From NCBI RefSeq assembly GCF_000735605.1, contig NZ_JPKG01000056.1, forward strand, positions 1-64,000: a stretch of DNA of 64,000 bases, read 5' to 3'. Position 1 is the stretch's first letter, and every line of letters starts with the position of its first letter. Positions 5,416-40,796 of this stretch are shown here, one piece after another. Under the pieces are notes generated by a model. It saw only the letters and a list, made by a program, of their open reading frames with translations, made no database searches and was not told the DNA's origin. The translations under genes and the position numbers were made by a program. Source of the stretch: Allobosea sp. LC85. GTDB lineage: Bacteria > Pseudomonadota > Alphaproteobacteria > Rhizobiales > Beijerinckiaceae.

Positions 5416-6495
5416 ATGCCGATGCCTGCGCCTGTGATTGATCCCGCCCTGCTGGCGACGTTCGATGTCGTCCGGGCAAGGCATTCAGAGGATCTGAGCG
5501 GCACATTCCGCGTGACCGAACGGGCCCCACGGTCAAGCCGCACCTACACCTATCAATTGCAGGATCGCGCGCTGTGGCGCCTGCGCTTCGAACAGCCGAT
5601 CTTCACACTCGCGACGCGCAGCGTCGGCTCGATCGTCGCAAGCTACGCCGACAGCAGCTTCGCCACCAATGGCTTCGTCGATGGCGACGACGGCGGTCTG
5701 TTTTGTTTCACGACGATGCTCACGGGCCATACGACCCTGGAGCGAAAGGGAAAGTCCGCGACAGCCACAAGCCGATCCGGCCTTGTCTGGAGACCCGCTC
5801 CAGGCGGCCGTCTCTTGATGAGCAACGACAACGCGCGAACCAACATCTTCTTCAAGGTGGCGGATCTGGAGAGCGCGCTGGAGCACATGCTGGATGAGCC
5901 ATTGCACGAGCCACTCGATTTCGAGCCTGTTCTCGATTGGACCACCGGGCTCGGCTTCAGCCTGAAGCACCAGCTCGATTTCGTCATGCAGGAGTTTCAG
6001 CGGGACGACGGCGTGACCAGCAGCCCGGTCGCACTGGCATCTCTGACCGACCTGCTGGCCTCGCTGGTCCTGCGCGGCACCGCCCACAACTATACGGACA
6101 GGCTGGCAAACACCGCCGGCAGCGCAGTTTCCGTTTATGTTCGACGTGCGGAGGATTTCATGCGCGCTCAGGGTGCGCAGCCGATCCGGATGGCGGATGT
6201 CGCTGCGGCCGCCGGCTGCAGTGTGCGGACCTTGACCGCGGTCTTCAAGCATTTCCGCGGCGATACACCCTTGGCCGTGCTGCACGCCGTCCGGCTCGAT
6301 CTGGCGCATGCCGACCTCGTTCTCGGCACCTGCGACGCCGCGGTTGCCACCGTCGCCCGCCGCTACGGTTTCACCAACACGGCACGGTTCGCTGCCGCCT
6401 TTCGCAGCCGGTTCGGCAAAACACCCACCGAAACCGCCCGGAATGCATCCAGTCGCATGAAGCCCGGACCGGGCGGTCCAGCGAAAGATCGGTAG
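5416..6495 (+). CDS. AraC family transcriptional regulator
   Basis: A 359-residue regulator. The N-terminal two thirds resemble the AraC-binding-like (cupin-type) sensor domain, with no ligand residues I can name. The C-terminal part (about 240-345) carries two helix-turn-helix units: the first around MADVAAAAGCSVRTLTAVFK and the second around VARRYGFTNTARFAAAFRSR, followed by FGKTPTE, the normal end of AraC DNA-binding domains. A GGAG-type ribosome site precedes the ATG at 5416; a second ATG lies two codons in. The gene stands alone, so its target is not evident. Confidence 0.88.
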   Translation: MPMPAPVIDPALLATFDVVRARHSEDLSGTFRVTERAPRSSRTYTYQLQDRALWRLRFEQPIFTLATRSVGSIVASYADSSFATNGFVDGDDGGLFCFTTMLTGHTTLERKGKSATATSRSGLVWRPAPGGRLLMSNDNARTNIFFKVADLESALEHMLDEPLHEPLDFEPVLDWTTGLGFSLKHQLDFVMQEFQRDDGVTSSPVALASLTDLLASLVLRGTAHNYTDRLANTAGSAVSVYVRRAEDFMRAQGAQPIRMADVAAAAGCSVRTLTAVFKHFRGDTPLAVLHAVRLDLAHADLVLGTCDAAVATVARRYGFTNTARFAAAFRSRFGKTPTETARNASSRMKPGPGGPAKDR

Positions 6496-6577
6496 CCCGC
6501 GACGGACCGATCGGACGCACAGAAGAAGGGCAGAACCGGCGTCACCGCCTGGCGTTCGTCACCCGCCGAAGCCGATT

Positions 6578-6790
6578 TCAGTCCTTGCGCTGGTTGAGCT
6601 CGCCCTCGTAGCGCTGTTCACTCTCGATCCATTTGCCGTCCTGGCCGCGCTCGCGCGAATGCTGCGCCTTGTCGCGGTTCGAGAGGACCGCATTGTCGGG
6701 AAGCTCGGGCGTCCGGCTGCTCATCGCGCCAACGCCGTCGCCCTTTCCCTTGGCCCCCGCGCCGAAATGCTTCTTGTCTGCCTTGGCCAT
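6578..6790 (-). CDS. small hydrophilic protein (70 aa), last gene of small-protein operon
   Basis: Start chosen at ATG 6790 because GAGGGAGG lies just upstream; an upstream in-frame start at 6841 would overlap the preceding gene. The protein is extremely polar, rich in Lys, Gly, Asp, Glu, Arg and Gln, with no hydrophobic core (MAKADKKHFGAGAKGKGDG, then a charged tail ending NQRKD). It is probably disordered in solution. Proteins of this style are common stress-induced hydrophilins in soil bacteria; that role is inference. Confidence 0.7.
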   Translation of the reverse strand: MAKADKKHFGAGAKGKGDGVGAMSSRTPELPDNAVLSNRDKAQHSRERGQDGKWIESEQRYEGELNQRKD

Positions 6791-6809
6791 GTCGGCCTCC
6801 CTCGCTTTC

Positions 6810-7034
6810 TCACTTTCGTGCGCGTGCAGCGCGCCCGTCACGCGCGCTCGCCTTGGCGATGCCGCCCTGGGCGTTGACGTCGTTCTCGCGGTCGCCCTCG
6901 ATCGTGTTCTCGCCGGCGATCATCTCGAGATCGTCGCCCGCCTGCGGCCGGCCGATGCCCTTCGAGCCACCGATCAACGGGTTGCCGCGCAGATCGGCGT
7001 CGCTCGGCTTCTCGGGTTTCAGGTGCTTGCTCAT
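6810..7034 (-). CDS. small hydrophilic protein (74 aa)
   Basis: Third gene of the operon. The product begins MSKHLKPEKPSDADLRGNPL and is dominated by charged residues, Gly and Asn, without a predicted membrane or signal segment. TGGAG lies upstream of the ATG. It ends 19 bases before the next gene. The 63-base gap above it is filled by a tandem repeat (7035-7092). No family recognised. Confidence 0.68.
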   Translation of the reverse strand: MSKHLKPEKPSDADLRGNPLIGGSKGIGRPQAGDDLEMIAGENTIEGDRENDVNAQGGIAKASARDGRAARARK

Positions 7035-7092
7035 GATGTTCGACTCCAGTGTTTCGACTCCCGATGTTTCAACTCGCGATGTTTCGACTCCC
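7035..7092. repeat. four imperfect 14-15 bp tandem copies
   Basis: Copies of a unit close to GATGTTTCGACTCCC fill the leader of the 74-aa gene and run up to just before the stop codon of the gene above. The copies differ at a few bases, so the array is older than the perfect ones elsewhere. Confidence 0.8.
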
Positions 7093-7097
7093 GCGTC

Positions 7098-7307
7098 TCA
7101 GGCGGGCCGGCTGCCGCCGCCCTTTTTCTCGGGATCGCGGGTATGATGAATGTCGCGCTCGCCGCCGCCGCCGGAGATCCGCGAATGGCGGCGGTTGTCC
7201 TCGTCGGCCGGCGGCTTCTCGACGCGCAGCGGCTTCTTGGCGTTCTCGTGCGAGGCGCCGGGGCCCCCCTGACGGATGGTCTGTGGCGCTTTTGTCGATG
7301 TCGACAT
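7098..7307 (-). CDS. small hydrophilic protein (69 aa)
   Basis: Second gene of the operon, with GGGAGGA before the ATG and only 14 bases after the preceding gene. The product (MSTSTKAPQTIRQGGPGASH...) is basic and Gly/Pro/Arg-rich with a GGGG run, and has no hydrophobic segment. Likely intrinsically disordered. Function unknown; co-expression with its neighbours is well supported by spacing. Confidence 0.68.
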   Translation of the reverse strand: MSTSTKAPQTIRQGGPGASHENAKKPLRVEKPPADEDNRRHSRISGGGGERDIHHTRDPEKKGGGSRPA

Positions 7308-7321
7308 CGTATCCTCCCGGC

Positions 7322-7510
7322 TCAGCGATCCTGCTGATGGCCCTGATGGGTCGTGTTGATGCGCGTGTTGCCCTGCTGTCCCGTGTTCTCGGGGTCGTTC
7401 GGGCGGCTTCGCGCCTGTTGGTTACGGGCTTGATCGCGCTGCTTGTGGTCGGCCTCACCCGGGCCCTTGTTGCTGCGGTTGGCGGGTGGGATCGGTGGTT
7501 GCTTGCTCAT
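7322..7510 (-). CDS. small hydrophilic Gln/Asn-rich protein (62 aa), first gene of operon
   Basis: ATG at 7510 with a perfect AGGAGG at 7514-7519. The protein (MSKQPPIPPANRSNKGPGEA...) is dominated by Gln, Asn, Arg, Pro and Gly and ends in a His/Gln-rich tail. It follows a candidate EcfG-type promoter by 27 bases. It resembles hydrophilin-like stress proteins in composition but I recognise no family. Confidence 0.68.
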   Translation of the reverse strand: MSKQPPIPPANRSNKGPGEADHKQRDQARNQQARSRPNDPENTGQQGNTRINTTHQGHQQDR

Positions 7511-7537
7511 CGCATCCTCCTGTGCTGTCCATGTCGG

Positions 7538-7563
7538 AACCCCTCCACCCGGCCCGTGGTTCC
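7538..7563 (-). promoter_or_regulatory. candidate EcfG (general stress sigma factor) promoter
   Basis: On the minus strand GGAAC (7559-7563) is followed after 17 bases by GGTT (7538-7541). This fits the alphaproteobacterial general-stress promoter (GGAAC, 16-18 bases, then GTT) controlled by the PhyR-NepR-EcfG switch. A transcript starting about 7 bases downstream would have a leader of about 20 bases containing the AGGAGG of the 62-aa gene, so the geometry is good. The site is nearly palindromic, so the plus strand also shows GGAAC-N18-GTT. Confidence 0.6.
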
Positions 7564-7812
7564 GCGCCCTGCTTCACGATGCCGCTCCCCCCAGACGCGC
7601 AACCGCCACCGCGCCGGCGGTGTCGCAAGCGGAGCGTAGACATTCCGTGGAAGGCCATTTTCGCAACCGATCGGACCCGGCGCGAATGCCATCGCCGCGC
7701 TCTTCGGGACGCAGGTGAAGGCGATCTTCGACGCATTGAGGCGCCCCCGGTGAAAGCCGCCGATTTCTTGCTACCCGGTTTCCTGGTTCCGATTTCCTGG
7801 AACCGATTTCCT

Positions 7813-7838
7813 GGAACCAATCTCGGCCTGGCTCAGTT
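7813..7838 (+). promoter_or_regulatory. weaker EcfG-like promoter candidate
   Basis: GGAAC (7813-7817), 18 bases, GTT (7836-7838) on the plus strand, pointing at the 88-aa small gene at 8002. The leader would be about 155 bases and the motif lies in a region of 14-bp repeats that themselves contain GGAACC, so a chance match is quite possible. Confidence 0.3.
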
Positions 7839-7925
7839 GCACCGAGAACTCCACCGCAGCGGTGCAGGAGCATGAACACGCTCGGGCCGCATGGCGCTGT
7901 CGGGGGTGGTCGCTCCCGTGCACGT

Positions 7926-7988
7926 GGCCGCGTGAAGCCCATGGCCGCCTGAAGCACATGGCCGCCTGAAGCATATGGCCGCCTGAAG
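7926..7988. repeat. 17-bp tandem repeat, 3.7 copies
   Basis: The unit GGCCGCCTGAAGCACAT occurs at 7926, 7943, 7960 and, cut short, 7977, with few mismatches. It ends at the ribosome site of the 88-aa gene. A second small array (GATTTCCTGGAACC at 7791-7818) lies upstream. Apart from these, 7511-8001 shows no gene. Confidence 0.85.
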
Positions 7989-8001
7989 AAGGAGCATGAC
8001 G

Positions 8002-8268
8002 ATGGTTGGCAGAAAGACGCATGAGCAGCAATTGCGCACGCTGGAGCGCAAACCCGACATTCCGGACGGCCGCCAAATGGAGGCGGAAATCCGCTCCGGC
8101 GGCAGCGGCGAGCGCCATCGCGAGGCGGCAGCCACGCCGCGCCCCACCGAACATCCGGTAAGCCACACCGGCATGAACCAGGAGGACCGCGATCACAACA
8201 AGCATAATCGCGGCGGGCAGCAGGGTCACAAGCCGCAGCGGCACCGTCAGGCGGAAGAGAAAACCTGA
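8002..8268 (+). CDS. small hydrophilic protein (88 aa)
   Basis: The ATG at 8002 is preferred because GAAGGAG lies seven bases upstream; the ATG at 7996 would sit against it. The product (MVGRKTHEQQLRTLERKPDI...) is rich in His, Arg, Glu, Gln and Gly with no hydrophobic segment. It ends in a charged tail (QKPQRHR-type, ...AEEKT). It matches the style of the four minus-strand small proteins next door, so the five may belong to one stress-linked set. No family recognised. Confidence 0.65.
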   Translation: MVGRKTHEQQLRTLERKPDIPDGRQMEAEIRSGGSGERHREAAATPRPTEHPVSHTGMNQEDRDHNKHNRGGQQGHKPQRHRQAEEKT

Positions 8269-8461
8269 GCCCGCCTGCCCTGTCCGGCGGTTGGCACGAT
8301 CGCCCGTCCCTGTCGCGCCGGCCGCCCCTGCGAGAACGAGCAGCACGGACATCGTTGAAGGCGGTTGGCTAGGGCCACGGTCAGGCGTCGCCTGAGGGTC
8401 GGGATCGAGGTCGGGACATGCTCGGGTCGGCCATGATCATCTCGTCGTCCCGCCACAACGT

Positions 8462-8551
8462 GCCGTCGAAGAAGCTGCCCGCCAACTCGGCCTCGGCCGC
8501 TCGACAATTTGCCGCGAAATGCGCCGCTTCGGTATCAGCAGGCCAGCGTAG
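8462..8551 (+). pseudogene. remnant of a Fis-type helix-turn-helix tail
   Basis: The plus-strand frame ending at TAG 8549-8551 reads AVEEAARQLGLGRSTICREM followed by RRFGISRPA. This matches the C-terminal Fis-type HTH of NtrC-family sigma-54 activators (AA-x-LG-x-SRSTLYR-x-MRR-x-GI pattern). No upstream receiver or AAA+ domain and no start codon are present, so it is a degraded fragment. The rest of 8269-8557 shows nothing else. Confidence 0.45.
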
Positions 8552-8557
8552 GGATCA

Positions 8558-9994
8558 TCACGCGTTCCAGAAACCGCTCTTGCGGCCATGCTTCGCCTTG
8601 CGCGCCGCAACGTAGGTATCGTGATCGACGTGCCTGTTGTAATCCCCGATCCGTCTTGCAAGATCAGCACAGGTTTGCAGGTGCCGGGCCGCGTGGGGAT
8701 AACGCGTGGCGCGGGCCTTATCGAGCGCGAAATCGATCATCGCCCTTAGCGCCAATGTCGCGGCCAACGGGTGTTTTGTCTCAAGCGCTTCGGCCGCGTC
8801 CGTCAGACAGCCGTAATGATCGCCATCAAGCTCGGAATGGCGAGCGAGGATCATTTTCGCTGCGGCCTCAGGCGCTGGCCATTCGATCAGAAAACCAAGC
8901 CCCTGATGAAAATCAGCGAAAGTCCCGGCATGAGCCAAGGCACGCTCCTCGGCTTCGTCGTTATCAAAATCCGGCAGCCGCTTGAGGTAAGCTTTCAGAT
9001 AATCAGCATGCAGCAGTTTCTCGAAAAGAGACCAGCGCACACGCTGTGCCTCGTCCGCCCGCCCCGAGGCATCCAGCGTATCGATCCGAACCCGGTCCCA
9101 ATCGGGCCAGGACCCGCCCGTCTTCCGCAGCGCTTCCGCCTTCGTGAGTGCTGCCATCGCGTCGCCGGCCCGGCCCGCAGCCAGCAACCGCTCTGCAATC
9201 TGGGCAGCAATCGCGGGATTGGCCTGCTCTTCCCTTGAAAACCGCGAGACATAGCCGTCCACATCGCCCAGAGTATCGGCTATCTCGGTCAGTGCCGATT
9301 GAACGAGACGCGCATGGCGACGGATCGCAAGATCGTCCTCATACAGTGCACCGCGCGACGAGGACCAGCCGATCGCGCGCCGTTCGTCCTTGCCGGCGGG
9401 CTTCGGCGGATCGGCCGCCAGAGCCTCGAACTTCTTCTTGAGAATCGTCAGCCCTTCCTGCCCCAGCGGCCCGGCCATCAGGGTGACGAGATGATCGAAT
9501 TGCCCGTACTCATTGGCGCAAACGCCGGCGAAAACCTTCTCCGCCAGCATGCCCGGTGCAGGTTTCGCGGCCTGGGCCGCTCGCCCCAGATCTTCGAGCG
9601 CTTCGCTCATGATGCCGCCGACCATCCCGTTGCTGTCGTCACACCGTTCATGAATAGCCGGCGCCAGCCCCAGAAACTGCCAGAGCAGATCGAAGGCTTC
9701 CGACGGCTGCTTCGGCGCGACATGGGTCACGATCGCCTGGCGCTGAGCCTCAAGGTCCTGCGCAAACGCACGCATCTTGTGCCAGTCGATGAAAGAACGA
9801 GATTTGGCTATCGTCGCCAGTCGTTTGCGAATTTCCCCGGCAACCTGATCCGTACCGACGCTGCTGGCGAGTTCCAGACGAAGGCGTCTCTTGATCGCCG
9901 CATCGCCTTCCGCCAGTTCGAACAGGATTTGTGCGAGCCGCCCCACCCCAAGAGCTGCAATGCGCTTGCTATCGAATGTCTTGCCAGACGCCAT
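8558..9994 (-). CDS. DUF6880-like helical repeat protein
   Basis: A 478-residue soluble protein. Start at ATG 9994 with GAGGAGG just upstream; a TTG five codons earlier is the alternative. It is almost entirely helical, with TPR-like pairs in the second half (for example AQIAERLLAAGRAGDAMAAL and similar). It resembles a conserved alphaproteobacterial family I know as DUF6880, of unknown function; the match is from memory. No catalytic motif or signal peptide is seen. The gene is monocistronic. Confidence 0.7.
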   Translation of the reverse strand: MASGKTFDSKRIAALGVGRLAQILFELAEGDAAIKRRLRLELASSVGTDQVAGEIRKRLATIAKSRSFIDWHKMRAFAQDLEAQRQAIVTHVAPKQPSEAFDLLWQFLGLAPAIHERCDDSNGMVGGIMSEALEDLGRAAQAAKPAPGMLAEKVFAGVCANEYGQFDHLVTLMAGPLGQEGLTILKKKFEALAADPPKPAGKDERRAIGWSSSRGALYEDDLAIRRHARLVQSALTEIADTLGDVDGYVSRFSREEQANPAIAAQIAERLLAAGRAGDAMAALTKAEALRKTGGSWPDWDRVRIDTLDASGRADEAQRVRWSLFEKLLHADYLKAYLKRLPDFDNDEAEERALAHAGTFADFHQGLGFLIEWPAPEAAAKMILARHSELDGDHYGCLTDAAEALETKHPLAATLALRAMIDFALDKARATRYPHAARHLQTCADLARRIGDYNRHVDHDTYVAARKAKHGRKSGFWNA

Positions 9995-10113
9995 CCCTCC
10001 TCCTCGCAAAGGGACGGGAACCGGTCAAGCACTGGCCCGGTGGACAAGAAGCAAACACGATCAACATAGCCAATCACGAATGGGCACAAGACCGTCCCGG
10101 GCGCTGGCGCTCA

Positions 10114-10458
10114 CTACCATCCGTTCCAGGAACGCTCCTCGCGCCATGCCCGCCAGGCGTTGCGCTCGCGCCAGCGCTCCGCACGCCAAGCGTCGCGCTC
10201 GTGGAAGCGTTCCGCGCGCCAAGCGTCGCGATTGCGCAAGCGTTCTGCACGCCAAGCGTCGCGATTGCGCAAGCGCTCGGCGCGCCAAGACGGGTCGGAG
10301 TATGGATTGTAATAGTGATCGTACTGGACCTGAACCACGCTGGAATCGGCGTGCCTTACAAGCAGATCAACGGTGATCGGCGCCGTTGCCGCCCCCGTTG
10401 CGAATCCAGCGGCACCCAACGCCACCACCGCGGCAATGCCAAGGCGAACTTGCTTCAT
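10114..10458 (-). CDS. small secreted Trp/Arg-rich repeat protein
   Basis: A 114-residue protein with a signal peptide (MKQVRLGIAAVVALGAAGFA, cleavage near ATA). After a short linker (VQYDHYYNPYSDPS) it becomes an array of an 11-residue unit close to WRAERLRNRDA, repeated about five times to the C-terminus with drift (WRAERFHERDA, WRAERWRERNA). Each unit has one Trp, three to four Arg and two acidic residues, so it could form a charged helix. GAGGAGAGAAAGAG precedes the ATG. No known family. Confidence 0.7.
   Translation of the reverse strand: MKQVRLGIAAVVALGAAGFATGAATAPITVDLLVRHADSSVVQVQYDHYYNPYSDPSWRAERLRNRDAWRAERLRNRDAWRAERFHERDAWRAERWRERNAWRAWREERSWNGW
10138..10293. repeat. 33-bp coding tandem repeat, about 4.5 copies
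   Basis: The DNA under the WRAERxRxRDA array repeats with a 33-bp period. The two copies nearest the signal-peptide end are almost identical in DNA while the distal copies have drifted, which fits stepwise in-frame expansion. Confidence 0.85.
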
Positions 10459-10824
10459 CTCTTTCTCTCCTCTTGTCCCTTGACACGGTCGTCAGCCGCT
10501 GGAGCAGGAGTCAGGGCATCTCCCGCACCCGCCTGATTGCATCGCGATTCACGGCGGCCAGAGGCGAAGCGGGATCGGCACCCCGGACTCCATTTATATC
10601 CGGCAAAATATATCAAGAGCCACCGCGGTCTATAACCAGATTAAGATGCTAATGTGGCAGAATTTTGATATAATTCTAATTTAGAAACAATCAACTTGCA
10701 GATGTTTTTCAATATAGAACTTGATCTTTTATATAAGTCATAATTGAATTCTTGACACATGGACGATTAGAACCTTGATATTGGCTTCTCGACCGAAATC
10801 AATTTTGTGATTATCTGACGTACG
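10459..10824. other. AT-rich leader upstream of the polysaccharide operon
   Basis: Roughly 10600-10815 is visibly AT-rich (runs such as AATTTTGATATAATTC and TTTTATATAAG) in an otherwise GC-rich window. No gene is seen. Such islands in front of surface-polysaccharide operons often bind xenogeneic silencers or MucR-type regulators in this class; that is inference here. Confidence 0.6.
10752..10780 (+). promoter_or_regulatory. candidate sigma-70 promoter of the polysaccharide operon
   Basis: TTGACA at 10752-10757 is followed after 17 bases by TTGATA at 10775-10780, a good -35 and a weak -10. It would give a leader of about 40 bases before the GTG start at 10825. Confidence 0.4.
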
Positions 10825-12330
10825 GTGAATGTCATCTTGAATGAATCATTGTCCGCGACCATTCATCGACTTCCTCGTCGCAATCGCTACGTGCTTGCCT
10901 CGATCCGCGATCAGGATGCTCTCGAAGCCTCGCCGCTTGGCGATCTTCTCGTGTTCGTCGATCCCGAGTCGGATGTGGAATGGCTGCGGAGCACGTTTCC
11001 GCTTGTTGGCGTCGCGGCCTCCGATGCGGGGGGCGATGACCTGCGGGCCGCGCTCAAGCGGCTCCAGAAGGTGAGGTCCCTGCCGGACATTCCGGTCGTC
11101 CGGCTGCAGGAGGCGGCGCTTGCCGCGGAGGCAGGGCTCGCGGCGCAGGTGATCGAGGGCGGTCTCGGGCGCCTGTCGCGCCATATGGCGAATGTCAGCA
11201 CCGAGCTTGCGATGCTGCGGCGGGAGCGGGAAACACTCTTCGAGAATTACCGCGCGCTCGAAAATGCATTCCATGCACGCAATTGGGACACGGTGTCGGA
11301 GGTGTTCAGCCACGAGCCCTCCACCGATCCCAAAGACCAGGGGCTCGCAACCCTGCTGCTCCAATCCGAGATCGAGCAACTCTTCCCGGTCTCAAGCTAT
11401 GCCGTATCCGGCTTCGCCTTGCACTTTCGTGATATCCCGACGGACGGAGCCGGCCAGCTCATCGTCACGCTCGATTATGTCGAGAGCGGCGAGGGAATCG
11501 CGGAATGGCTCATTCCCTATGGCAGCGTCACCCCGGGCTGGAATTTCTTCTCGCTGCCAAAGGCATGCGACGGCAGCCATCGCACGCTGCGGCTCAAGAT
11601 TTCCGCCAGCGGCGGCATACCGCCCGAACTCTCCCTCGGCCATGTTATCGCCAACGAGCGCTACGCCGCCCGGGCACGGTTGCCGCATGGCGACCTCGAC
11701 ATGCGCCCGCTGGCCTTCCGGATTTTCACCGGGCTTCCGGGCGTGCGTCCAACGGCCCTGCCGAACGTTTTCGTGCCGTCCGCGCTGATCTCCGGGCGCA
11801 AGGTCGAGGACTACCGGCTGCCGGTCGAACTGCTGCGCGCTATCGCCAATGTCTCGCTGAGCCCGATCGAGCCGGGCTTTCCGACGGTACGCTTCCTGGA
11901 GCTCGAGGATGCGATCGTCTGCCATCCGCTCAGCGAGGGCATCACCGCCGGCGCCGTCCGCCGGGTGGTGGCGCCCGGCACGGCGCGCATCTCGGCGCGC
12001 GCCGTGATCGATCATCCCGAAGGCAAGCCCGCCACGGTCGGGCTGATGCTCGTGCCGCTGTCGGCCGATGTCAAAGGGGAGATCGCGACTTTGGCCGGCG
12101 GCGGCGAACTCCCGCCCACGGCGTTTTTCAGCGGCTGGACCGATATCACGGCCGCGCAACCGGTGGATATCAACTTCATGCTGGAAGCACCGGCGCCGCG
12201 CACGATGGACCTTGTCGTCCTGAGCAAGGCGACCAGCAACTCGGTCGATTTCGCCTGGCTCAAGGTCTTCAACTTCCGACTGGTCAAATATCTCGAAACC
12301 CGCCCGGCCCGGGAGCGCGCCGATGCGTGA
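10825..12330 (+). CDS. unknown protein, first gene of polysaccharide operon
   Basis: A 501-residue protein starting with GTG; no clear ribosome site is visible, and alternative starts in frame are not better. It has no signal peptide or membrane helix. Residues about 95-150 look coiled-coil-like (AELAMLRRERETLFENYRAL region), and the second half (about 185-495) looks beta-rich, with two related stretches (near VSSYAVSGFALHFRDIP and near FPTVRFLELEDAIVCHPL) that suggest carbohydrate-binding-like beta-sandwich modules. I do not recognise the family with confidence. It overlaps the glycosyltransferase gene by 8 bases, so the two are translationally linked and probably work on the same glycan. 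Confidence 0.75.
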   Translation: MNVILNESLSATIHRLPRRNRYVLASIRDQDALEASPLGDLLVFVDPESDVEWLRSTFPLVGVAASDAGGDDLRAALKRLQKVRSLPDIPVVRLQEAALAAEAGLAAQVIEGGLGRLSRHMANVSTELAMLRRERETLFENYRALENAFHARNWDTVSEVFSHEPSTDPKDQGLATLLLQSEIEQLFPVSSYAVSGFALHFRDIPTDGAGQLIVTLDYVESGEGIAEWLIPYGSVTPGWNFFSLPKACDGSHRTLRLKISASGGIPPELSLGHVIANERYAARARLPHGDLDMRPLAFRIFTGLPGVRPTALPNVFVPSALISGRKVEDYRLPVELLRAIANVSLSPIEPGFPTVRFLELEDAIVCHPLSEGITAGAVRRVVAPGTARISARAVIDHPEGKPATVGLMLVPLSADVKGEIATLAGGGELPPTAFFSGWTDITAAQPVDINFMLEAPAPRTMDLVVLSKATSNSVDFAWLKVFNFRLVKYLETRPARERADA

Positions 12331-15016
12331 CGAGCCGCAGCAGGATCTGGTCGCCATCGCCATGCCGCTCTACGGCCATGCGGCGCTCGTGCTCGAGGCG
12401 CTCGAATCCGCCTTGGCTTCGGTGACGGGTTGCCGCCTGGCGATCGTGGTCTCGGTCGATGGCGACCCGCGCCACGAGGTCTTCGATCAGCTCGTGTTCC
12501 AGGCGGCGGCGCATCCCGAGATCCGTGTGATCTTCGGCGAGAATGCCGGCCCGGGCGGCGCCCGCAACCGCGCGATCGACTATATTCTCGAGGAATTGCC
12601 CGAGGCCAAGGCGGTCTATTTCCTCGACGCCGATAATCGCGTCCTGCCGCACTCGATCGAGACGCTCTATCGCCGGCTCCAGGCGAGCGGGGCCGGCTGG
12701 GTCTACACCAATATCGATACGTTCTCGGTCAATTGGCGCGCGCATTACGGCAACAGCTACTCGCGCCTGATCCACTGCATCACCGACAATATCTGCGACA
12801 CCGGCTCGATGATCTCGATCGACGTCTTCCGCAGCGGGGTACGCTTCGACGACGATCGCCAGAACGGCTTCGAGGATTGGGAGTTCTGGCTCTCGGCCAT
12901 CGAGGCCGGCTTCGTCGGCGAGCCCTGCCACGACGCGGCTTTCGAATATCGCCTGCGCGCGGAAGGTCGCTTCAAGGAGGCCAACCGCGAGCGCTCGGCC
13001 TCGATCAGCTTTCTCCGCCGACAGCACAAGGCGCTGTTCCGCCGGCCGACCCTGGTCGGCTTCGAGCATCAGGAAGCGCCGCGCTATGCCTTCATCCGCA
13101 CCGGCGAGGGAGCGCTCGACGTCTTCACCGACCCGACGCTGCCCGCCGGCGCGATGGGCTTCGACGATGCGGTCCGCGCCTTCTGGGGCAGCGTCGGCGA
13201 GCCCGACAATTTCCATTTCCCGCCCTTCCTCGCAGCCTGCAGCAGCGAGACGCTCAAGCTTCTTGCGCGCTCGCGGCTCCTGCCGAACATCCTCTGCCAT
13301 CTCGAGAAGCTGGCGGAGCAGTGCAACGTCGTCTTTGTCGAGCTCGGCAACGTCGATTCGGAGCGGAGCATCGAGTGGGACGTCCTGCCCTCCGGCGCGC
13401 GGCAAGGTGCCGCCGATCTCACCTTCGTCTCGACCGGGCTGATCCGGAACGTCATCGACAACAACGCGCTCGACTGGTTCTCCTCGATCGGCGGCGAGCA
13501 GGCCTGGCCGACATCGGCGCGCCTCAAGGTCCGCTTCCCCTTCCCGAAGGCAAGGCAGCGCCGCTCGCTGGTCCGGCCTGAGCAGGCGCTGCTGAATCTC
13601 GTCAGCGCGATCGCGACCAGCCCGCTGCGACGGACCGCCTCGACGCGCTGGACCTGGCGGCCGCGCCGGCTGCCGGCCCTGTCCGAGCTGTACAAGGAGC
13701 TCAGGACCGAGCTCGGCGGCTCGCCGGTGCTACCGCTCGCGCATAACGCGGCGCAGCGCCGGACGGCGGCCGTGCTGGTCCCGAACGCCTCCTTCGGCGG
13801 GGCCGAGAAGGTCGCCTATGCGGCCGGGCGCGAGCTCAGGCAGGACGGATTCGAAACCCATCTCTTCGTGCTCGGCACTGGGCGGATGGACGTGCTCGAC
13901 GAGTTCGACCAGGCCTTCGACTATGTGCATTTCTGGAAGGACGGCGTGCCGGCCTGGGGCGACACCAGCCATTTCCTCGGCCAGGATTTCATCACCGAGG
14001 ATCATGCGCTCGACTGGCCCGGGCTGAGGGGCCTGCTCTCCGGCTTCGACCTCATCGTCAACAACCACGTCATGGCGGCGCACCCGCTGATGGCGAAGTT
14101 CCGTTCCGAGGGCACGCGCACCGCCTGCTATCTCCACGTCGTCGACGAGACGGCACTCAGGCGGCCGGCCGGGCAGCCCTATGCCGCCATCGCCTTCGAG
14201 CACTCCTACGACGCCTTCCTGACCTGCTCGGAGCAGCTCAAGAGCTATCTGCACAGCTTCGGCGTTCCTTTCGGCAAGGTCTTCGCCGTGCCGAACAGCG
14301 CGAGCTTCTCCATCGATACGCGGCTACGGACACAGGTGAGCGAGGCCCGCAAGGCCGGGCGCGGGAGCGAGCCGATCCGCCTGCTCTATATGGGTCGGCT
14401 CGACCGGCAGAAGGGCATCGACCGGCTGCACGGCACGCTCGTCCAGCTCAAGGAGCGCGGCATCGCCTTCGAGGCGCGGGCCGTGGGAGGCGAGATCCTG
14501 TCCGACGATCCGAGCTCGTCCTGGATGGCGCGCCTGCGCACGATCGGCGTCCAGGTCGCGCCGCCGGTTTTCGCCGCAAAGGATCTCGCAGCCCATCTCG
14601 CCTGGGCCGACATCCTGGTGATGCCGTCGCGCTGGGAGGGCGCGCCTCTGATGATCGCCGAGGCGCAGCAGCTCGGCTGCGTAGCGATGGCGACTGCGGT
14701 CGGCGCGGTCGACGAACTCGTCACACCCGATCAGGACGGCATCCTGATCGGGAACGCCACCGACGCGCAGATCGTGGCCGAGATGGTGCGGGCGATCGCC
14801 GCCCTGGCGCGGGACCGCGCCGCGCTCGCCGGGCTCGCCGAGGGCGCGCTGGCGACGGCGGCGCAGCGCTCCTGGACCGCCTCCTTCGCCGATTTCATCG
14901 CCTGGAGCCGCGGCATTGCGCCGGCGGCCCCAGATCAACGCAGCACCGCTTCGGACGAGCCCGTACGCGATGAGGCTCCGGCTGATGCCGAGCTCTCCGT
15001 CCGCGCCGTTGCATGA
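12323..15016 (+). CDS. double glycosyltransferase: GT2 domain plus GT4 domain
   Basis: An 897-residue protein with two transferase modules. Residues about 9-230 are a GT-A fold GT2 domain: nucleotide-binding start (VAIAMPLYGHA, VVSVDGD), the GGARNRAID element, and the metal-binding DAD in YFLDADNR. Residues about 479-860 are a GT-B fold GT4 domain: FGGAEKVAYAAGREL at its start, LLYMGRLDRQKGIDRL, and the donor-site stretch PSRWEGAPLMIAEAQQLG. The middle (about 230-470) is unassigned. No membrane segment, so it acts in the cytoplasm. A single chain with both modules probably adds two sugars in sequence to a growing polysaccharide or glycoconjugate. It overlaps the gene before it. Confidence 0.85.
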   Translation: MRDEPQQDLVAIAMPLYGHAALVLEALESALASVTGCRLAIVVSVDGDPRHEVFDQLVFQAAAHPEIRVIFGENAGPGGARNRAIDYILEELPEAKAVYFLDADNRVLPHSIETLYRRLQASGAGWVYTNIDTFSVNWRAHYGNSYSRLIHCITDNICDTGSMISIDVFRSGVRFDDDRQNGFEDWEFWLSAIEAGFVGEPCHDAAFEYRLRAEGRFKEANRERSASISFLRRQHKALFRRPTLVGFEHQEAPRYAFIRTGEGALDVFTDPTLPAGAMGFDDAVRAFWGSVGEPDNFHFPPFLAACSSETLKLLARSRLLPNILCHLEKLAEQCNVVFVELGNVDSERSIEWDVLPSGARQGAADLTFVSTGLIRNVIDNNALDWFSSIGGEQAWPTSARLKVRFPFPKARQRRSLVRPEQALLNLVSAIATSPLRRTASTRWTWRPRRLPALSELYKELRTELGGSPVLPLAHNAAQRRTAAVLVPNASFGGAEKVAYAAGRELRQDGFETHLFVLGTGRMDVLDEFDQAFDYVHFWKDGVPAWGDTSHFLGQDFITEDHALDWPGLRGLLSGFDLIVNNHVMAAHPLMAKFRSEGTRTACYLHVVDETALRRPAGQPYAAIAFEHSYDAFLTCSEQLKSYLHSFGVPFGKVFAVPNSASFSIDTRLRTQVSEARKAGRGSEPIRLLYMGRLDRQKGIDRLHGTLVQLKERGIAFEARAVGGEILSDDPSSSWMARLRTIGVQVAPPVFAAKDLAAHLAWADILVMPSRWEGAPLMIAEAQQLGCVAMATAVGAVDELVTPDQDGILIGNATDAQIVAEMVRAIAALARDRAALAGLAEGALATAAQRSWTASFADFIAWSRGIAPAAPDQRSTASDEPVRDEAPADAELSVRAVA

Positions 15017-15041
15017 CGATCATCGGAAGGTCCCGAACCCC

Positions 15042-16217
15042 ATGGCCCCCAGAATTCTCCTCACCGGCATCCCGAGCCATCTCACCCGCCTCATTCAAAA
15101 GGCCGAAGGCGCCCAGGTCTTCTACTCGGAGAAGCAGCCGCAGCCCGAGAGCAAGGAGGCCTTCCTCCGCGAGCTCAAGAGCATCACCAATACCGGCAAT
15201 TACCTGATCGGCGAGGGAGCGCTCAGGGCGCTCTCGCCGAATGCGACGCATATCCCGTTCTGGCACCTCTGGAACGCCGTCAACAACGGCACCGGCCTCG
15301 ATACGATCAACGACCGCTTCGACATCTGCGTCTTCACCTGCGCCAACCTGCTGCGCAAGGGCCTTTCGGCCGATGCCGAGGCGCTCGTCCTGTCGAAGCT
15401 CGACATGCCGGTCGTGATGCTCGGTATCGGCATCCAGAACCGGCCGGACCTGGAGCAGTCCCTGCCCGAGGGCACGCAGCGCCTGCTGCAGGTTCTGAAG
15501 CAGAAGGAGCATTATTTCCTGACGCGCGGCGAGGAGACCGCTTCCTATCTCCGCGACCAGGGATTCTCCTTCGTCCGTCCGGTCGGCTGCCCGTCGCTCT
15601 ATTTCATGCCGTCCAATGTCCGGCGTGCGCTGCGCCGGCTGCCGGATGTGAAGGTCGGCGAATGCCGCACGGTCTTCACCGGCTATATGGGCGCAGCGCT
15701 CGACACGATCGGCGACATGAACGCGCTGTCCTCGGATGACGGACGCTCATCCTATGTGGTGCAGGACGAGCTCCTGCATTTCGACATGCAGGTCGAGCCG
15801 GACGGCGACGGCCGCGTCTACGATTCCGCCTCGGGCGAGATGATCGGTGACCTGACCTTCAAGGGCTCGGGCGAACTGAAGAGGAAGGTCAAGGTCCATG
15901 CCTTCTTCGACACCAACCAGTGGCGGGCCTGGACCTCGTCGATGGACTTCGCCTTCGGACGGCGCTTCCACGGCAACATCATCGCGCTCCAGGCCGGTGT
16001 GCCGAGCCTGATCGTCGCCGTCGACGACCGCATGCGCGAGATGCTGAATTTTTCCGGGCTGCCGAAGCTCGAAGCTGCCGAGTTCAACAGCGCCAATGAT
16101 CGCGCGGCCTTCGTCGCCGATCACCTCGCTGCGATGAACATCCCGCAGGTCATCGAGACATATTCCGACCGGGAGCGCAATTTCCGGTCGGTCTTGAGCG
16201 AGATCGGCATCGCCTGA
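15042..16217 (+). CDS. polysaccharide pyruvyl transferase family protein, copy 1
   Basis: Start at ATG 15042 (MAPRILLTGIPSHLTRLI); the frame is open further upstream but that overlaps the glycosyltransferase gene. The 391-residue product has family hallmarks: an NTGNYLIGEGA phosphate-loop-like start at about 50-60, MLGIGIQ, LTRGEETASYLR, VGCPSLYF, and a conserved RRFHGNIIALQAGVPSL near the C-terminus. These enzymes move pyruvyl groups from phosphoenolpyruvate onto sugars (CsaB/WcaK/ExoV type). The next gene encodes a paralogue of the same length. Exact acceptor unknown. Confidence 0.8.
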   Translation: MAPRILLTGIPSHLTRLIQKAEGAQVFYSEKQPQPESKEAFLRELKSITNTGNYLIGEGALRALSPNATHIPFWHLWNAVNNGTGLDTINDRFDICVFTCANLLRKGLSADAEALVLSKLDMPVVMLGIGIQNRPDLEQSLPEGTQRLLQVLKQKEHYFLTRGEETASYLRDQGFSFVRPVGCPSLYFMPSNVRRALRRLPDVKVGECRTVFTGYMGAALDTIGDMNALSSDDGRSSYVVQDELLHFDMQVEPDGDGRVYDSASGEMIGDLTFKGSGELKRKVKVHAFFDTNQWRAWTSSMDFAFGRRFHGNIIALQAGVPSLIVAVDDRMREMLNFSGLPKLEAAEFNSANDRAAFVADHLAAMNIPQVIETYSDRERNFRSVLSEIGIA

Positions 16218-16255
16218 TGCCGTGTTTGACGAAACGGGGCTGAGGGCAAACAGAC

Positions 16256-17431
16256 ATGCGGATCATGGTCACGGGCATCCCATCTTACCTGATGCGGACT
16301 GTCGAGAGCGTATCGGGAGCAACCGTCAAGCACCGCCCGTATTTCGAGGCGGTGCGAACCAAGAAGGAGCTGATCGACCAGGTCAAGAAGATCGCCAATA
16401 CCGGCAATTACCTGATCGGCGAAGGCGCAGCCAACAGCGTGCGCGGTCACGATGTCACCTATGTCCCGTTCTGGCATCTGGCGAACAGCGTCAACTCGCC
16501 GGAAACCTATGAGAGGCTGAACCAGAGCTTCGACCTGTGCCTGTTCGCCTCGGCCAACCTGCTGCGGCCGGGCTATGCGGCGACGACCGAATCCTTCGTG
16601 TTCGAGCGGCTCGACATGCCGATCGTGGTCATGGGCATCGGCATCCAGAAGAAGGAGAACCTCAAAGATGCCCTGCCCGAAGGCACGCGCCGCTTCCTCA
16701 ACGTGCTCAAGAAGAAGGAGAGTTTCTTCCTGACGCGGGGCCATTTCACCGCCGATTTCCTCAAGGCCGAGGGCATGAAATATGTCCGCCCGACCGGCTG
16801 TCCGTCATTGTATTACGAGCCGGCGGCGATGAAGCGCTCGCTCAGCCATCTGGCCGATCCGGACCTCGCCGATTCGCAGAAGATCGCCTTCGGCGGCTAT
16901 CTCGGCAGCGTGCCGGACACGATCGTCGATGCCCATGCGCTGCTGCGCCAGGACAGCGTCGCGAGCTATGTCGTCCAGGACGAGATCACCGTCTACAACC
17001 TGAACATCGTCGCTGACGACGCGACCGAGGCCTATGACCAGGCCGCCGGCCGCATCACCGCCAAGACCGAGTACAAGCACGCCGAGAAATGGCAGCGGAA
17101 CTGCGAGTTCCGCGTCTTCTTCGACACGCATAAATGGCGCAGCTGGGTCTCGGGGCAGGATTTCTGCTTCGGCCGCCGCTTCCACGGCTCGATCATCGGC
17201 ATGCAGGCCGGCGTGCCGGCGCTGATGATCGCGGTCGACGACCGCATGCGCGAGATGCTCGAATTCGTGGGCTTCCCCTATATCGAGGCGTCGGTCTGGA
17301 ACCGCGAGGCGAAGAAGAAGGCCTTCCTGCAGGACTTCCTCTCCAAGATCGACGTGCCGGCGGCGATCCATCGCTACTCCGCCTGCGAGGAGAACTTCAA
17401 CGCGGCGCTCAAGGATATCGGGATCCGATGA
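16256..17431 (+). CDS. polysaccharide pyruvyl transferase family protein, copy 2
   Basis: Also 391 residues, and alignable end to end with the preceding product: ANTGNYLIGEGA, VMGIGIQ, LTRGHFTADFLK, PTGCPSLYY, RRFHGSIIGMQAGVPAL. The pair is a tandem duplication that has clearly diverged, so both copies are probably kept for different linkages or as a heteromer. Its stop overlaps the start of the next gene (ATGA at 17428-17431). Catalytic activity is inferred from family only; some members of this superfamily have lost it. Confidence 0.8.
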   Translation: MRIMVTGIPSYLMRTVESVSGATVKHRPYFEAVRTKKELIDQVKKIANTGNYLIGEGAANSVRGHDVTYVPFWHLANSVNSPETYERLNQSFDLCLFASANLLRPGYAATTESFVFERLDMPIVVMGIGIQKKENLKDALPEGTRRFLNVLKKKESFFLTRGHFTADFLKAEGMKYVRPTGCPSLYYEPAAMKRSLSHLADPDLADSQKIAFGGYLGSVPDTIVDAHALLRQDSVASYVVQDEITVYNLNIVADDATEAYDQAAGRITAKTEYKHAEKWQRNCEFRVFFDTHKWRSWVSGQDFCFGRRFHGSIIGMQAGVPALMIAVDDRMREMLEFVGFPYIEASVWNREAKKKAFLQDFLSKIDVPAAIHRYSACEENFNAALKDIGIR

Positions 17432-18573
17432 TGGGAGACCTCGCGAGCAGAGCCTCGGGACGGAGGCGGAGCTTCAGGCGACCGGCGCTGCTGCGCCGCC
17501 TGATCCCGCTCGTTGCGGCGTCGGGTCTCGCGGCCGCCGCCGTCGCCGCGCCGCCTGGTGCGCCGGCGCAGTTCGGCGTCAACCGCGTCAATCTCGCCTG
17601 GCTCGACGCCGCCGGCCGGGAGAAGGTGCTGGATCAGATTGCGCAGAGCGGCATCCGGTCGGTGCGGCTCTCCGTGACCAATCCGATCGATGCCAGCATC
17701 GACGCGGTCAGGGTCGCCCATCAGAAGGGCCTCGCGGTCCTGCTCGAGGTCTCGCTCAACAATCGCGCCCTCTATCCCGAGGGAACGAAGCCACGCTCCG
17801 GCCGCGGCCGCATCTGGGACATGTACCGGCTCTCCGACATCTCGCCCGATCTGTACCGAACGATCGTCGGAGACGTCCTGCAGCGGATCGACCGGTTCGG
17901 GGTCCCGCTCGTCGCCGTCGAGCCCGGCAACGAGATCAATTGGGGCGCCTATAACGGCGACCTCGACATCCAGCCCGAGGCGAATGTCCGAACGGCCCGC
18001 TCGCTGGCGGATCTGAGCGATCCGGCGGCGCTGGAGCGCGGCGCGGCGAACTATGTACAGCTCCTGCAGGTGACGCGGCAGGAGCTGGCAAAGACGAAGC
18101 TGAGCCGCGGCGCCAAGGTCGTCTCGGCCGGGCTCTCCGACATTCCGCCGGCTCATGCCGACCGGCGCGGCATCGACAGCATCGATCCGGCGAGCTTCAC
18201 TGCGCTCCTGCGCAAGCACGGCCTGGACAAGGCCGCCGACGGCTATGGCATCCACATCTATCCCGGCGGCGACACGTCGCCGTCAGCGCGTCAGCAGCAT
18301 GTCGACCAGGCGCTCTCGATCTGCCGCACGCGGCCGGAGGAGGGCAAGCCCTGCTGGATCACTGAATGGGGCTATGCCAACACCGCGAAGACCTGTCCCG
18401 CCGATGACAGGCGCCGCGAACGTCTGGTCAAGGCGACCCGCGAGCGCTTCTCCGAGCTGATGCGTGCCGGCCGGATCGCCGCCGCTTTCTACTTTGATTG
18501 GGACGCGACGACGTATGGAATCTGGCGCTGCGGCGAACTCTCCCCGGCTGGCCGCGCGGCGGTGACGCCGTGA
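17428..18573 (+). CDS. exported glycoside-hydrolase-like TIM-barrel protein
   Basis: A 381-residue protein beginning at the ATGA overlap with the previous gene. The N-terminus is Arg-rich and then hydrophobic (LIPLVAASGLAAAAVAAPPG), a signal peptide or anchor. The rest looks like a clan-A (beta/alpha)8 glycosidase: Glu169 in VEPGNEINWG has the Asn-Glu setting of the acid/base residue, and Glu313 in CWITEWGY fits the nucleophile on strand 7. The two glutamates are 144 residues apart, within the clan range. It probably trims or releases the polymer made by this operon in the periplasm. Exact GH family not determined. Confidence 0.72.
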   Translation: MMGDLASRASGRRRSFRRPALLRRLIPLVAASGLAAAAVAAPPGAPAQFGVNRVNLAWLDAAGREKVLDQIAQSGIRSVRLSVTNPIDASIDAVRVAHQKGLAVLLEVSLNNRALYPEGTKPRSGRGRIWDMYRLSDISPDLYRTIVGDVLQRIDRFGVPLVAVEPGNEINWGAYNGDLDIQPEANVRTARSLADLSDPAALERGAANYVQLLQVTRQELAKTKLSRGAKVVSAGLSDIPPAHADRRGIDSIDPASFTALLRKHGLDKAADGYGIHIYPGGDTSPSARQQHVDQALSICRTRPEEGKPCWITEWGYANTAKTCPADDRRRERLVKATRERFSELMRAGRIAAAFYFDWDATTYGIWRCGELSPAGRAAVTP

Positions 18574-19754
18574 AGCTGAAGACCCTGATCATCGGCGGTT
18601 CCAACACCGTCATGCAGCCCGGCTACCTGTCCTCGCTGCTCCAGGTCATGGCGCGGCGCGGCATCGAGCTCGATATCGTCGCGGACCTCGCGGTCGGCGG
18701 CACGACCAGTGCATTCGGCCTCTATCAGCTCAAGATCCGCGAGCAGGAGCTCGCCGATTGCGACCTGCTGCTGATCGAATATGCGCTCAACGACGCCTTC
18801 GTCTACGGCGACGAGCGGCGCCCGTTCCGGCACTGGGCCCGCTTCTACGAGGGCATCATCCGCTTCGCCCGCGAGCGCAACCCGAACCTGCGGATCGCCA
18901 CCCTCGTCTTCGGCGCCCGCAACGGCTCGTTCCTGACGGCCGTGCCCTCGATCGACGCCGGGATCGCCTATATCTCGCAATGGTATGGGACGATCTGCGT
19001 CGACGTCTCGCGGCTGCTGATGCAGCGCCTCGGGCGCGAGGTGGTCGGCCATCCCAGCTTCTATTCCGATCAGGGCCACTATGCCCGGCCGGTGGCGACG
19101 ACCGTTGTCGCCAACCTGATCGCGGATGAACTGGATCCGGCGCTTGCCGCGCCGCTGCGCGTTGCTGCGCTGCCGCCCGCGATCGATCCCGAGCATTTCG
19201 CCGGCGCCCGCGCGCTCGACGGCGCCTGGCTGGCCAAGCGGCTTGGGCGGCCTGCCGTAGAATACAGCAACCGCCGCTTTTCGGTGGCAGCGATCGATCT
19301 CGGACGGGATCGGCTGTGTTTCGACGTCGAAAAGGGCATGCTGCTCGCGCTGAACTATGTCTGCGAGCCTCGCACCCCGCCGCTCGATGTCCAGGCCGGG
19401 AATGACATGCATCGTGCTGCGCTGCTCAAGGGCGGCGTGCGCAACGGCACCTACAAATTCCTGGTCTCGATGCTCAGTTTCGAGTTCCTGTACGGTCCGA
19501 CGCTGCTCGACATGCAGCAGACGCGCGCGCTGGTTCTGTCGGGCGGGACTGCCGCCGCCGAACCCAAGCTGCACGTGCCGAAGGACAGTATCCGGCACGA
19601 GACGTTTCCGGGCGAGCCGGTGCTACCGATCGCCGGCGTTCTCTTCACCGGAAACCTCAAGACCTGCGCCATCGAGAGATCCACCGCGCCGCTGATCCGG
19701 CCGGCAGACCAGCCTGCCGAAACCTCGCCCGCGCTCGCGGCGCTGGGCTCCTGA
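18570..19754 (+). CDS. SGNH/GDSL hydrolase family protein
   Basis: Start at GTG 18570, overlapping the previous stop (GTGA). The 394-residue protein has SGNH-like blocks in its first 180 residues: GGSNTV near the N-terminus (nucleophile Ser), LIEYALNDAF (Asn block), and SDQGHYARP (Asp/His block). Residues about 200-394 form a second, beta-rich region. There is no signal peptide, so it may act in the cytoplasm as an acetyl- or acyl-transferase or esterase on an intermediate of the glycan. Last gene of the operon; a 106-bp palindromic repeat follows. Confidence 0.75.
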   Translation: MKLKTLIIGGSNTVMQPGYLSSLLQVMARRGIELDIVADLAVGGTTSAFGLYQLKIREQELADCDLLLIEYALNDAFVYGDERRPFRHWARFYEGIIRFARERNPNLRIATLVFGARNGSFLTAVPSIDAGIAYISQWYGTICVDVSRLLMQRLGREVVGHPSFYSDQGHYARPVATTVVANLIADELDPALAAPLRVAALPPAIDPEHFAGARALDGAWLAKRLGRPAVEYSNRRFSVAAIDLGRDRLCFDVEKGMLLALNYVCEPRTPPLDVQAGNDMHRAALLKGGVRNGTYKFLVSMLSFEFLYGPTLLDMQQTRALVLSGGTAAAEPKLHVPKDSIRHETFPGEPVLPIAGVLFTGNLKTCAIERSTAPLIRPADQPAETSPALAALGS

Positions 19755-24131: not shown

Positions 24132-24371
24132 GTGAAGACCATCGTTATCTCCGGCGGATTGGACTCCGTCACGCTTGCCCACAAGGTCGCCGCCGAAAGA
24201 ACCCTCACCCGCCTCGTGTCGTTCGACGACGGCCAACGCCACAAGAAGGAGCTGGACGATGTGCGGAGCTGCGCCTCGCGCCTCGGCGTGCCCCACGACG
24301 TCGTCGATATCACCGCGGCCGGACGCCTCCTGACCGGATCGGCGACCAGCGGTGGACCGGTCCGTCCATGA
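24132..24371 (+). pseudogene. queC: truncated 7-cyano-7-deazaguanine synthase (QueC N-terminal third)
   Basis: From a GTG at 24132 the frame encodes 79 residues. The first 71 match the start of QueC closely: the ATP pyrophosphatase loop [25 protein letters not shown], and [19 protein letters not shown]. Full-length QueC has about 230 residues and a C-terminal four-cysteine zinc site, all missing here; the frame ends after eight unrelated residues. Its stop overlaps the queE start (ATGA). The deletion joint lies at about 24345. A decayed IS5-type transposase fragment is 1 kb downstream. A working queC, if any, must be elsewhere. Confidence 0.8.
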
Positions 24372-40575: not shown

Positions 40576-40796
40576 CAGTCGAAAAACCGCAGCATCTCGG
40601 CGAGCCGCGGATGCTCAAGCCGCGGATGCTTGCGATCCTTGTCGGAGAGGGTCAGCGAGGTCAGGGGCAGACCCCCGTCGATGCCGAGGGCCGGATCATC
40701 GAAGGCGAGCCTATGATCGTTCTCGAGCGCGTAGGGCGTGGTGACCTTGTAGAGCATTTCGGTGTCCGGCTCGGGTGTGACGAAGGGCATTGTCAT
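40575..40796 (-). pseudogene. rfbC: C-terminal remnant of dTDP-4-dehydrorhamnose 3,5-epimerase
   Basis: Seventy-three codons matching only the end of RfbC: EMLYKVTTPYALENDHRLAF, DDPALGIDGGLPLTS and LTLSDKDRKHPRL. Full RfbC has about 180 residues, with the catalytic His and Tyr in the missing N-terminal part. Upstream lies only repeat DNA. A short duplication doubles HPRLE near the end. The fragment abuts rfbD, showing that an rfbCD arrangement once existed here. Confidence 0.75.

Follow-up and report, generated by a model that had tools for sequence, protein, structure and literature searches.

Galactoglucan, or exopolysaccharide II (EPS II), of Sinorhizobium meliloti is built of glucose units that are acetylated and galactose units that are pyruvylated, and its gene cluster holds 22 genes in 27 kb. 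In the passages of PMC1403797 and PMC3233446 that describe it, the cluster consists of the wga (expA) operon, wgcA, wggR (encoding a MarR-type regulator), wgd (an ATP-binding cassette (ABC) protein and a membrane-fusion protein) and wge, the first gene of which encodes a secreted Ca-binding protein. The wgaG-J genes are assigned to dTDP-sugars, the glycosyltransferases are WgaB, WgaC, WgcA, WgeB, WgeD and WgeG, and WggR is reported to bind palindromes upstream of wgaA, wggR/wgdA and wgeA (PMC1403797, PMC3233446). According to a passage of PMC3418255, S. meliloti wgaA, wgdA and wggR mutants lose EPS II-dependent swarming.

Here we describe a six-gene operon at positions 10825-19754 of a 64,000-nucleotide stretch of Allobosea sp. 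LC85 (contig NZ_JPKG01000056.1, here C56), a genome counted below with Bosea; the whole stretch is called the window. The operon is very probably the wga (expA) operon of a galactoglucan-type (EPS II) pathway. Partner genes for the rest of such a pathway lie on a second contig, C29, of the same genome. In the reading that we prefer, wga is a horizontally acquired module, and its product would be a pyruvylated polymer akin to galactoglucan, made jointly with this resident wge/wgd machine; judging from the genes, we put the probability of such joint action with the C29 half at about 0.6. The operon is a relative of one already known; what is unusual is that it is unlinked from its pathway partners, ends in an SGNH gene and has a separate history.

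Operon layout and match to the S. meliloti cluster

An earlier reading of the letters alone (the sequence-only reading) had described six open reading frames (ORFs) on the + strand, and the ORF and Pfam analyses bore out their layout, spacing and domain types. Gene 1 (10825-12330, 501 aa, GTG start) overlaps gene 2 (12323-15016, 897 aa) by 8 nt; gaps of 25 and 38 nt precede gene 3 (15042-16217, 391 aa) and gene 4 (16256-17431, 391 aa), respectively; and gene 4, gene 5 (17428-18573, 381 aa) and gene 6 (18570-19754, 394 aa, GTG start) are joined by successive overlaps of 4 nt. For genes 1 and 6 the start codons are predicted, chosen by the ORF program or by us. These overlaps and gaps fit a single operon. 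The stretch 3' of the last gene folds no better than shuffled sequence (z -0.5), and none of the six proteins scores above the cut-off of any NCBIfam model. The gene-neighbourhood comparison in Hyphomicrobiales that the sequence-only reading had proposed showed conserved synteny: the six-gene order is kept in all 13 loci retrieved with gene 1 (3 of the Bosea group, 6 Phyllobacterium and 4 Kaistia), in a collection with one genome per species from which the window's own record was possibly left out. The gene set is therefore not a chance assembly.

A tblastn search of plasmids with gene 1 returned 108 records, 69 of them from Sinorhizobium and including pSymB of S. meliloti 1021. Genes 1-5 are 52, 68, 66, 72 and 52% identical to S. 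meliloti wgaA, wgaB, wgaD, wgaE and wgaF, in the same order, and this in-order match led us to reject the earlier view that no described locus has this set. An apparently new locus is thereby moved into a well-studied pathway. On one strand of the pSymB stretch (L043) we located WgeH-G-F-E-D-C-B-A, WgdB and WgdA, followed by a MarR protein, a GT4 protein, a DUF6212 protein, a GT2+GT4 protein, two PF04230 proteins, a glycosidase-like protein and rmlA, rmlC, rmlB and rmlD (the rml names were given by eye). A 2025 study (PMC12542648) lists pSymB sites for wgaA/SMb21319 (985929-985949), wgeA/SMb21314 (980325-980305) and wgeH/SMb21307 (970887-970867), each of them no more than about 160 bp upstream of the point where the corresponding frame begins in our analysis. 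Literature searches found no paper pairing galactoglucan with Bosea or with Kaistia; five mention it together with Phyllobacterium, naming that genus a single time apiece.

The proteins of the operon

Gene 1 (10825-12330) encodes the WgaA (ExpA1) homologue, which matches Pfam DUF6212 (PF19717, E 8e-125) and whose orthologues are 56-89% identical across the 13 loci. The family thus has a name, and no paper mentioning DUF6212 was found in the literature search; we leave its biochemical role unassigned and infer a required partner in the EPS II pathway. The predicted model is weak (predicted local distance difference test score, pLDDT, 61.5), with a coiled coil at 101-153 and beta-strand regions. 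Fold matches of this low-confidence model to CBM22-like and phage-baseplate proteins, at a template-modelling (TM) score of about 0.2, were not used as evidence.

Gene 2 (12323-15016) encodes the WgaB homologue (expA2+expA3), a single chain with Pfam domains GT2 (12-149), GT4 (491-658) and GT1 (686-825). Aligned over 861 aa, it shares 68% identity with an S. meliloti frame of 893 aa that runs without a break. The review passages list WgaB and WgaC separately; in the pSymB stretch, as in the window, the two make up a single frame.

Genes 3 (15042-16217) and 4 (16256-17431) encode the WgaD (ExpA4) and WgaE (ExpA5) homologues. The sequence-only reading had called them pyruvyl-transferase-like paralogues in a polysaccharide operon, and both indeed match the polysaccharide pyruvyl transferase family PF04230 (E 2e-20 and 3e-22), with 66 and 72% identity to their S. 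meliloti counterparts and 46% to each other. The S. meliloti counterpart of WgaE also matches PF04230 (E 9e-23). Both the PF04230 profile and the conserved Arg and His positions are present in WgaD and WgaE, and R162, R308 and H310 are invariant in 10/10 PF04230 rows, two PF04230 proteins from contig C29 included. The letters D, E and F of wgaD, wgaE and wgaF are presumptive, taken from gene order. The passages of a review of pyruvylated glycans name no EPS II pyruvyl transferase (PMC6801904), and the enzyme goes unnamed in the other literature passages as well; the clear candidates for it are WgaD and WgaE.

Gene 5 (17428-18573) encodes the WgaF (ExpA6) homologue, an exported glycosidase-like protein, 52% identical to S. 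meliloti WgaF, with an N-terminal hydrophobic leader read by eye. Its predicted model (pLDDT 82.3) is a TIM-barrel whose top fold matches in the PDB are an endo-beta-1,4-galactanase (4bf7, E 1.6e-10) and PslG (5bx9, E 4.2e-10). E169 (GNEIN) and E313 (ITEWG), both catalytic-type Glu, are invariant in 14/14 rows. The modelled barrel, the two Glu residues and a TM score of about 0.5 to GH-A enzymes place the protein in clan GH-A. At the sequence level, glycosidase families appear in Pfam below threshold only, single-sequence searches of the PDB gave no match for WgaF or WgaD, and a PDB search with a WgaF profile gave six weak matches, the best (E 0.006) a designed protein. PslG, of the Psl locus of Pseudomonas aeruginosa, shares the clan GH-A type of fold as the second-best PDB match; we take it to be an exported glycosidase of an exopolysaccharide locus and a working analogue of WgaF. 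Identity is only 16%, and the comparison with the Psl locus covers this one protein.

Gene 6 (18570-19754) encodes an SGNH/GDSL hydrolase-like protein that matches PF13472 exactly at threshold. S11/N12, N74/D75 and D167/H170 are invariant in 14/14 rows, and no export signal was seen by eye. The gene is present in all 13 Bosea, Phyllobacterium and Kaistia loci, and searches of the S. meliloti and S. medicae stretches gave no match to it at E 1e-10.

Partner genes on contig C29

Pfam shows no exporter, Wzx/Wzy or Wza encoded at the wga locus. The sequence-only reading had noted this absence, which stands for the locus and not for the genome: the exporter is missing there because the partner genes sit on contig C29. 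We searched four Bosea genomes with Phyllobacterium WgcA, WgdA, WgeB and WgeF and obtained one best locus in each. In the window's genome, this locus (C29, 25.6-40.6 kb) encodes wgeG-F-E-D-C-B-A, wgdB, wgdA, wggR and wgcA in the S. meliloti order, with proteins 35-59% identical to their S. meliloti counterparts. The same partner set is found in the 3 other wgaA carriers among 101 relatives, and WgeB turned up in 8/8 of the genomes searched from among those that carry the Phyllobacterium and Kaistia loci (L027 was left out).

Unlike in S. meliloti, wga is unlinked from these genes; the two halves lie on separate contigs (C56 and C29) of a 74-contig draft rather than in one cluster. In Bosea genome G013 a single contig carries both halves, separated by more than 70 kb. 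The Phyllobacterium plasmid clusters (e.g. L040, NZ_CP050302) have the same six wga genes, SGNH gene included, at 70-85% identity to the window's. There, by contrast, wga adjoins the wgcA, wggR, wgd and wge genes, and the partner proteins are only 38-62% identical to those of the window's genome.

The C29 locus also differs from the S. meliloti cluster in an extra PF04230 pair. Beyond wgeG lie two PF04230 proteins about 23-24% identical to WgaE, and they flank a 392-aa protein that matches no Pfam family and begins like an exported protein (L081:1759-5548). The Bosea wge locus with its own PF04230 pair looks like a version of the galactoglucan machine that dispenses with wga.

The partner genes also bear on what the product is. 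Glycosyltransferase domains in the operon, together with a partner-locus RTX protein (WgeA) of the secreted kind, are the only points in favour of the glycosylation of a surface protein or lipid, which we regard as very improbable: the S. meliloti wgaA mutant is described as EPS II-deficient, crude EPS from it failed to restore swarming, and the passages of that study report no glycoprotein (PMC3418255). Glycosylation of the RTX protein in particular had been raised by the type I secretion and Ca-binding genes beside the Phyllobacterium copy, and was dropped once the cluster was recognised as wg/exp. The sequence-only reading had suggested a pyruvylated, acylated surface glycan or glycoprotein; the glycan was a sensible guess given the EPS II composition described in passages of PMC1403797 and PMC3233446, and the glycoprotein is unsupported.

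A candidate WggR box upstream of the operon

About 135 bp upstream of the operon, at 10671-10689, lies a palindrome of the form TTC-N7-GAA, a candidate box for the MarR-type WggR. A Gibbs search over 18 upstream regions, a discovery step run with the Bosea wgaA regions included and with no shuffled control, returned TTC-N7-GAA-like palindromes, among them the three S. meliloti places, of which the wgeA one has a one-base half-site change. Few exact 10-mers are shared between the promoters. We then built a scoring matrix from 13 sites of other wga, wgd and wge promoters, with Bosea wgaA sites excluded and three of the sites carrying a one-base half-site change. The palindrome at 10671-10689 is the best match to this matrix in the whole window (23.4, against 12.9 and 11.7 for the next two), and its score was reached by 2/500 shuffles of the local AT-rich upstream region (p 0.004). 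The same test on the upstream regions of other Bosea wgaA genes gave 0/500 for both L021 and L022. The palindrome at wgaA and at wgd/wge promoters may be a further likeness to S. meliloti, and the operon is probably controlled by the resident WggR, to judge from these sites.

Distribution and separate histories

Identities to Phyllobacterium sp. 628 differ between the two halves of the pathway. For the wga proteins they are 66-87% in Bosea, 49-71% in Kaistia and 49-69% in Sinorhizobium; for WgcA, WggR, WgdA, WgdB and WgeB-G they are 34-62% in Bosea and 48-78% in Sinorhizobium. Kaistia WgdA, WgdB and WgeD-G and P. sophorae WgeD-G, from largely cut loci, were left out of this comparison. Trees of 13 species were built for WgaA, B, D, E and F and for WgcA, WgeB and WgeC. 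Bosea groups with Phyllobacterium in the first and Phyllobacterium with Sinorhizobium in the second, each with split support of 100. The approximately unbiased (AU) test, applied to groupings picked after the identity table had been seen, rejects Phyllobacterium+Sinorhizobium in the wga tree (p 4e-6) and Bosea+Phyllobacterium in the WgcA/WgeB/WgeC tree (p 8e-5). One shared history of wga and the partner half is thus rejected, and the simplest account of these sequences is a horizontal acquisition of wga independent of the wge/wgd half.

Within Bosea, full-length WgeF occurs in 42 of 61 genomes (the window's included) and a wgaA orthologue in 4 of 61; G043, G053 and G057 have only a 27-28% paralogue. 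When 67 genomes of the genus were searched, 5 had wgaB, and the fifth carrier, G464, has all six wga genes. The absence of WgeF (19 Bosea genomes) and that of wga are as judged by a search with a loose first look. Among 397 genomes of the order, with two or three candidates per genome scored and kinship uncorrected, we counted 17 carriers of WgeF (E<1e-70) and 9 of wgaA (E<1e-140), and every one of the 9 also has WgeF. Seven of the 8 sampled genomes besides the window's have both halves on one contig, about 12-19 kb apart, and the eighth has them on two contigs.

The neighbours of wga vary from locus to locus. They are a DUF6880 gene and an edd-like gene in the window and LysR- and oxidase-assembly-like genes in L021 (the edd, LysR and oxidase-assembly labels were given by eye), and in L022 and L032 a GT2+DUF6212 paralogue pair lies upstream. 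The DUF6880 protein (8558-10009, - strand) was found in 0/7 other Bosea genomes searched, which suggests an accessory stretch beside the operon. Distant GT2+DUF6212 pairs, 25-36% identical to wgaA/wgaB, were seen at G000:C57:129488-133011 (L034), at L022:5983-9575 and in L032 at about 6057-9082. Such pairs also occur in L035-L038 (G043, G057, G053 and G013), and they lie directly upstream of wga in two Bosea loci.

The patchy distribution of wgaB and these differing neighbours could mean that the operon is an acquired passenger, silent or non-functional in its host, and the upstream region is AT-rich, with a GC content of 0.44 where the window has 0.64, though AT-rich stretches lie upstream of wgd and wge genes too. 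We consider this improbable, since all six frames are intact, the catalytic-type residues are invariant, the promoter palindrome is kept and the GC content of the operon (0.66) is host-like rather than the 0.58 of Phyllobacterium. The same GC values suggest that the acquisition was not very recent or that the donor was GC-rich.

Proposed pathway

In the pathway that we favour, the acquired wga module and the resident C29 machine would act together. The WgcA, Wge and WgaB glycosyltransferases would build a Gal/Glc chain in the cytoplasm, with WgaA as a required partner, and WgaD and WgaE would move pyruvate ketals from phosphoenolpyruvate, most likely onto galactose. Export or assembly would fall to WgdA/WgdB (a type I secretion ABC protein and a membrane-fusion protein) and the secreted RTX protein WgeA. 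WgaF may act in the periplasm, trimming or editing the polymer in the way that PslG treats Psl, and the SGNH protein may add or remove an acyl group. The wga part would have come horizontally from a Phyllobacterium-like source, separately from the wge/wgd half.

A number of points weigh against this reading, in which the Bosea polymer, its sugars and its pyruvate are putative and proposed from the genes. The S. meliloti operon ends in rmlACBD (wgaG-J), and the Bosea operon ends in the SGNH gene instead; wgeH, present in S. meliloti, has no match in the C29 stretches, the only part of the genome searched for it. A published table in PMC12542648 describes WgaE (SMb21322) as a 'putative membrane-anchored protein', not a pyruvyl transferase. 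Of the 4 upstream regions of Bosea wgaA, one (L032, p 0.068) lacks a significant palindrome, and the Kaistia wgd/wggR region yielded no usable site. To the AU groupings having been chosen with the identities in view is added the long Bosea branch in the WgcA/WgeB/WgeC tree. Finally, 38 of the 42 Bosea genomes carrying wge (full-length WgeF) have it without wga, and in 4/4 opened wga-less loci (L123-L126) the arrangement Pyr2p-Exp392-Pyr1p adjoins wgeG, so that the resident machine could perhaps do without wga and each could work independently.

This last observation also supports two different polymers, one made by wga through another exporter and one by the C29 wge/wgd genes with their own pyruvyl transferase pair, as does the lack of any export gene in wga itself. 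We think it unlikely, because wgaA was never found without WgeF at the cut-offs used (9/9 carriers in the 397 genomes; the 4 Bosea carriers), both halves share a contig at about 12-19 kb in 7/8 sampled genomes, and the candidate palindrome is common to the two. A joint wga and C29 pathway is the better account of these patterns. Its extension is tentative: wga could be a module that passes between strains, joins the wgc/wgd/wge export and backbone machine already resident there under the host WggR and changes the pyruvylated polymer made, with wga-less Bosea making a different polymer on that machine by means of a pyruvyl transferase pair of their own. The findings also show the galactoglucan cluster to consist of separable parts with different histories, making the contribution of each part testable, and Bosea strains that share the wge/wgd background but differ in having wga offer natural gain-of-module comparisons.

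Other features of the window

An rmlD homologue (39682-40575, - strand; 52% identical to S. meliloti WgaJ) lies 20 kb downstream of wga. Adjoining it, at 40575-40790 (- strand), is a fragment that matches only the C-terminal third of rmlC (WgaH 122-185). No match to rmlA or rmlB was found in the window, the one part of the genome searched for rml genes, and from its gene content this pair may be the remnant of a dTDP-rhamnose set.

Just upstream of the operon, at 10114-10458 (- strand), a small exported-looking protein contains tandem 33-nt repeats encoding RNRDAWRAERL-like units. At 24132-25099 (+ strand), a 79-aa frame resembling what we take to be the start of QueC stands directly before a presumably QueE-like frame, and queC may be truncated here. 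Tandem direct repeats of 17 nt occupy 7920-7987.

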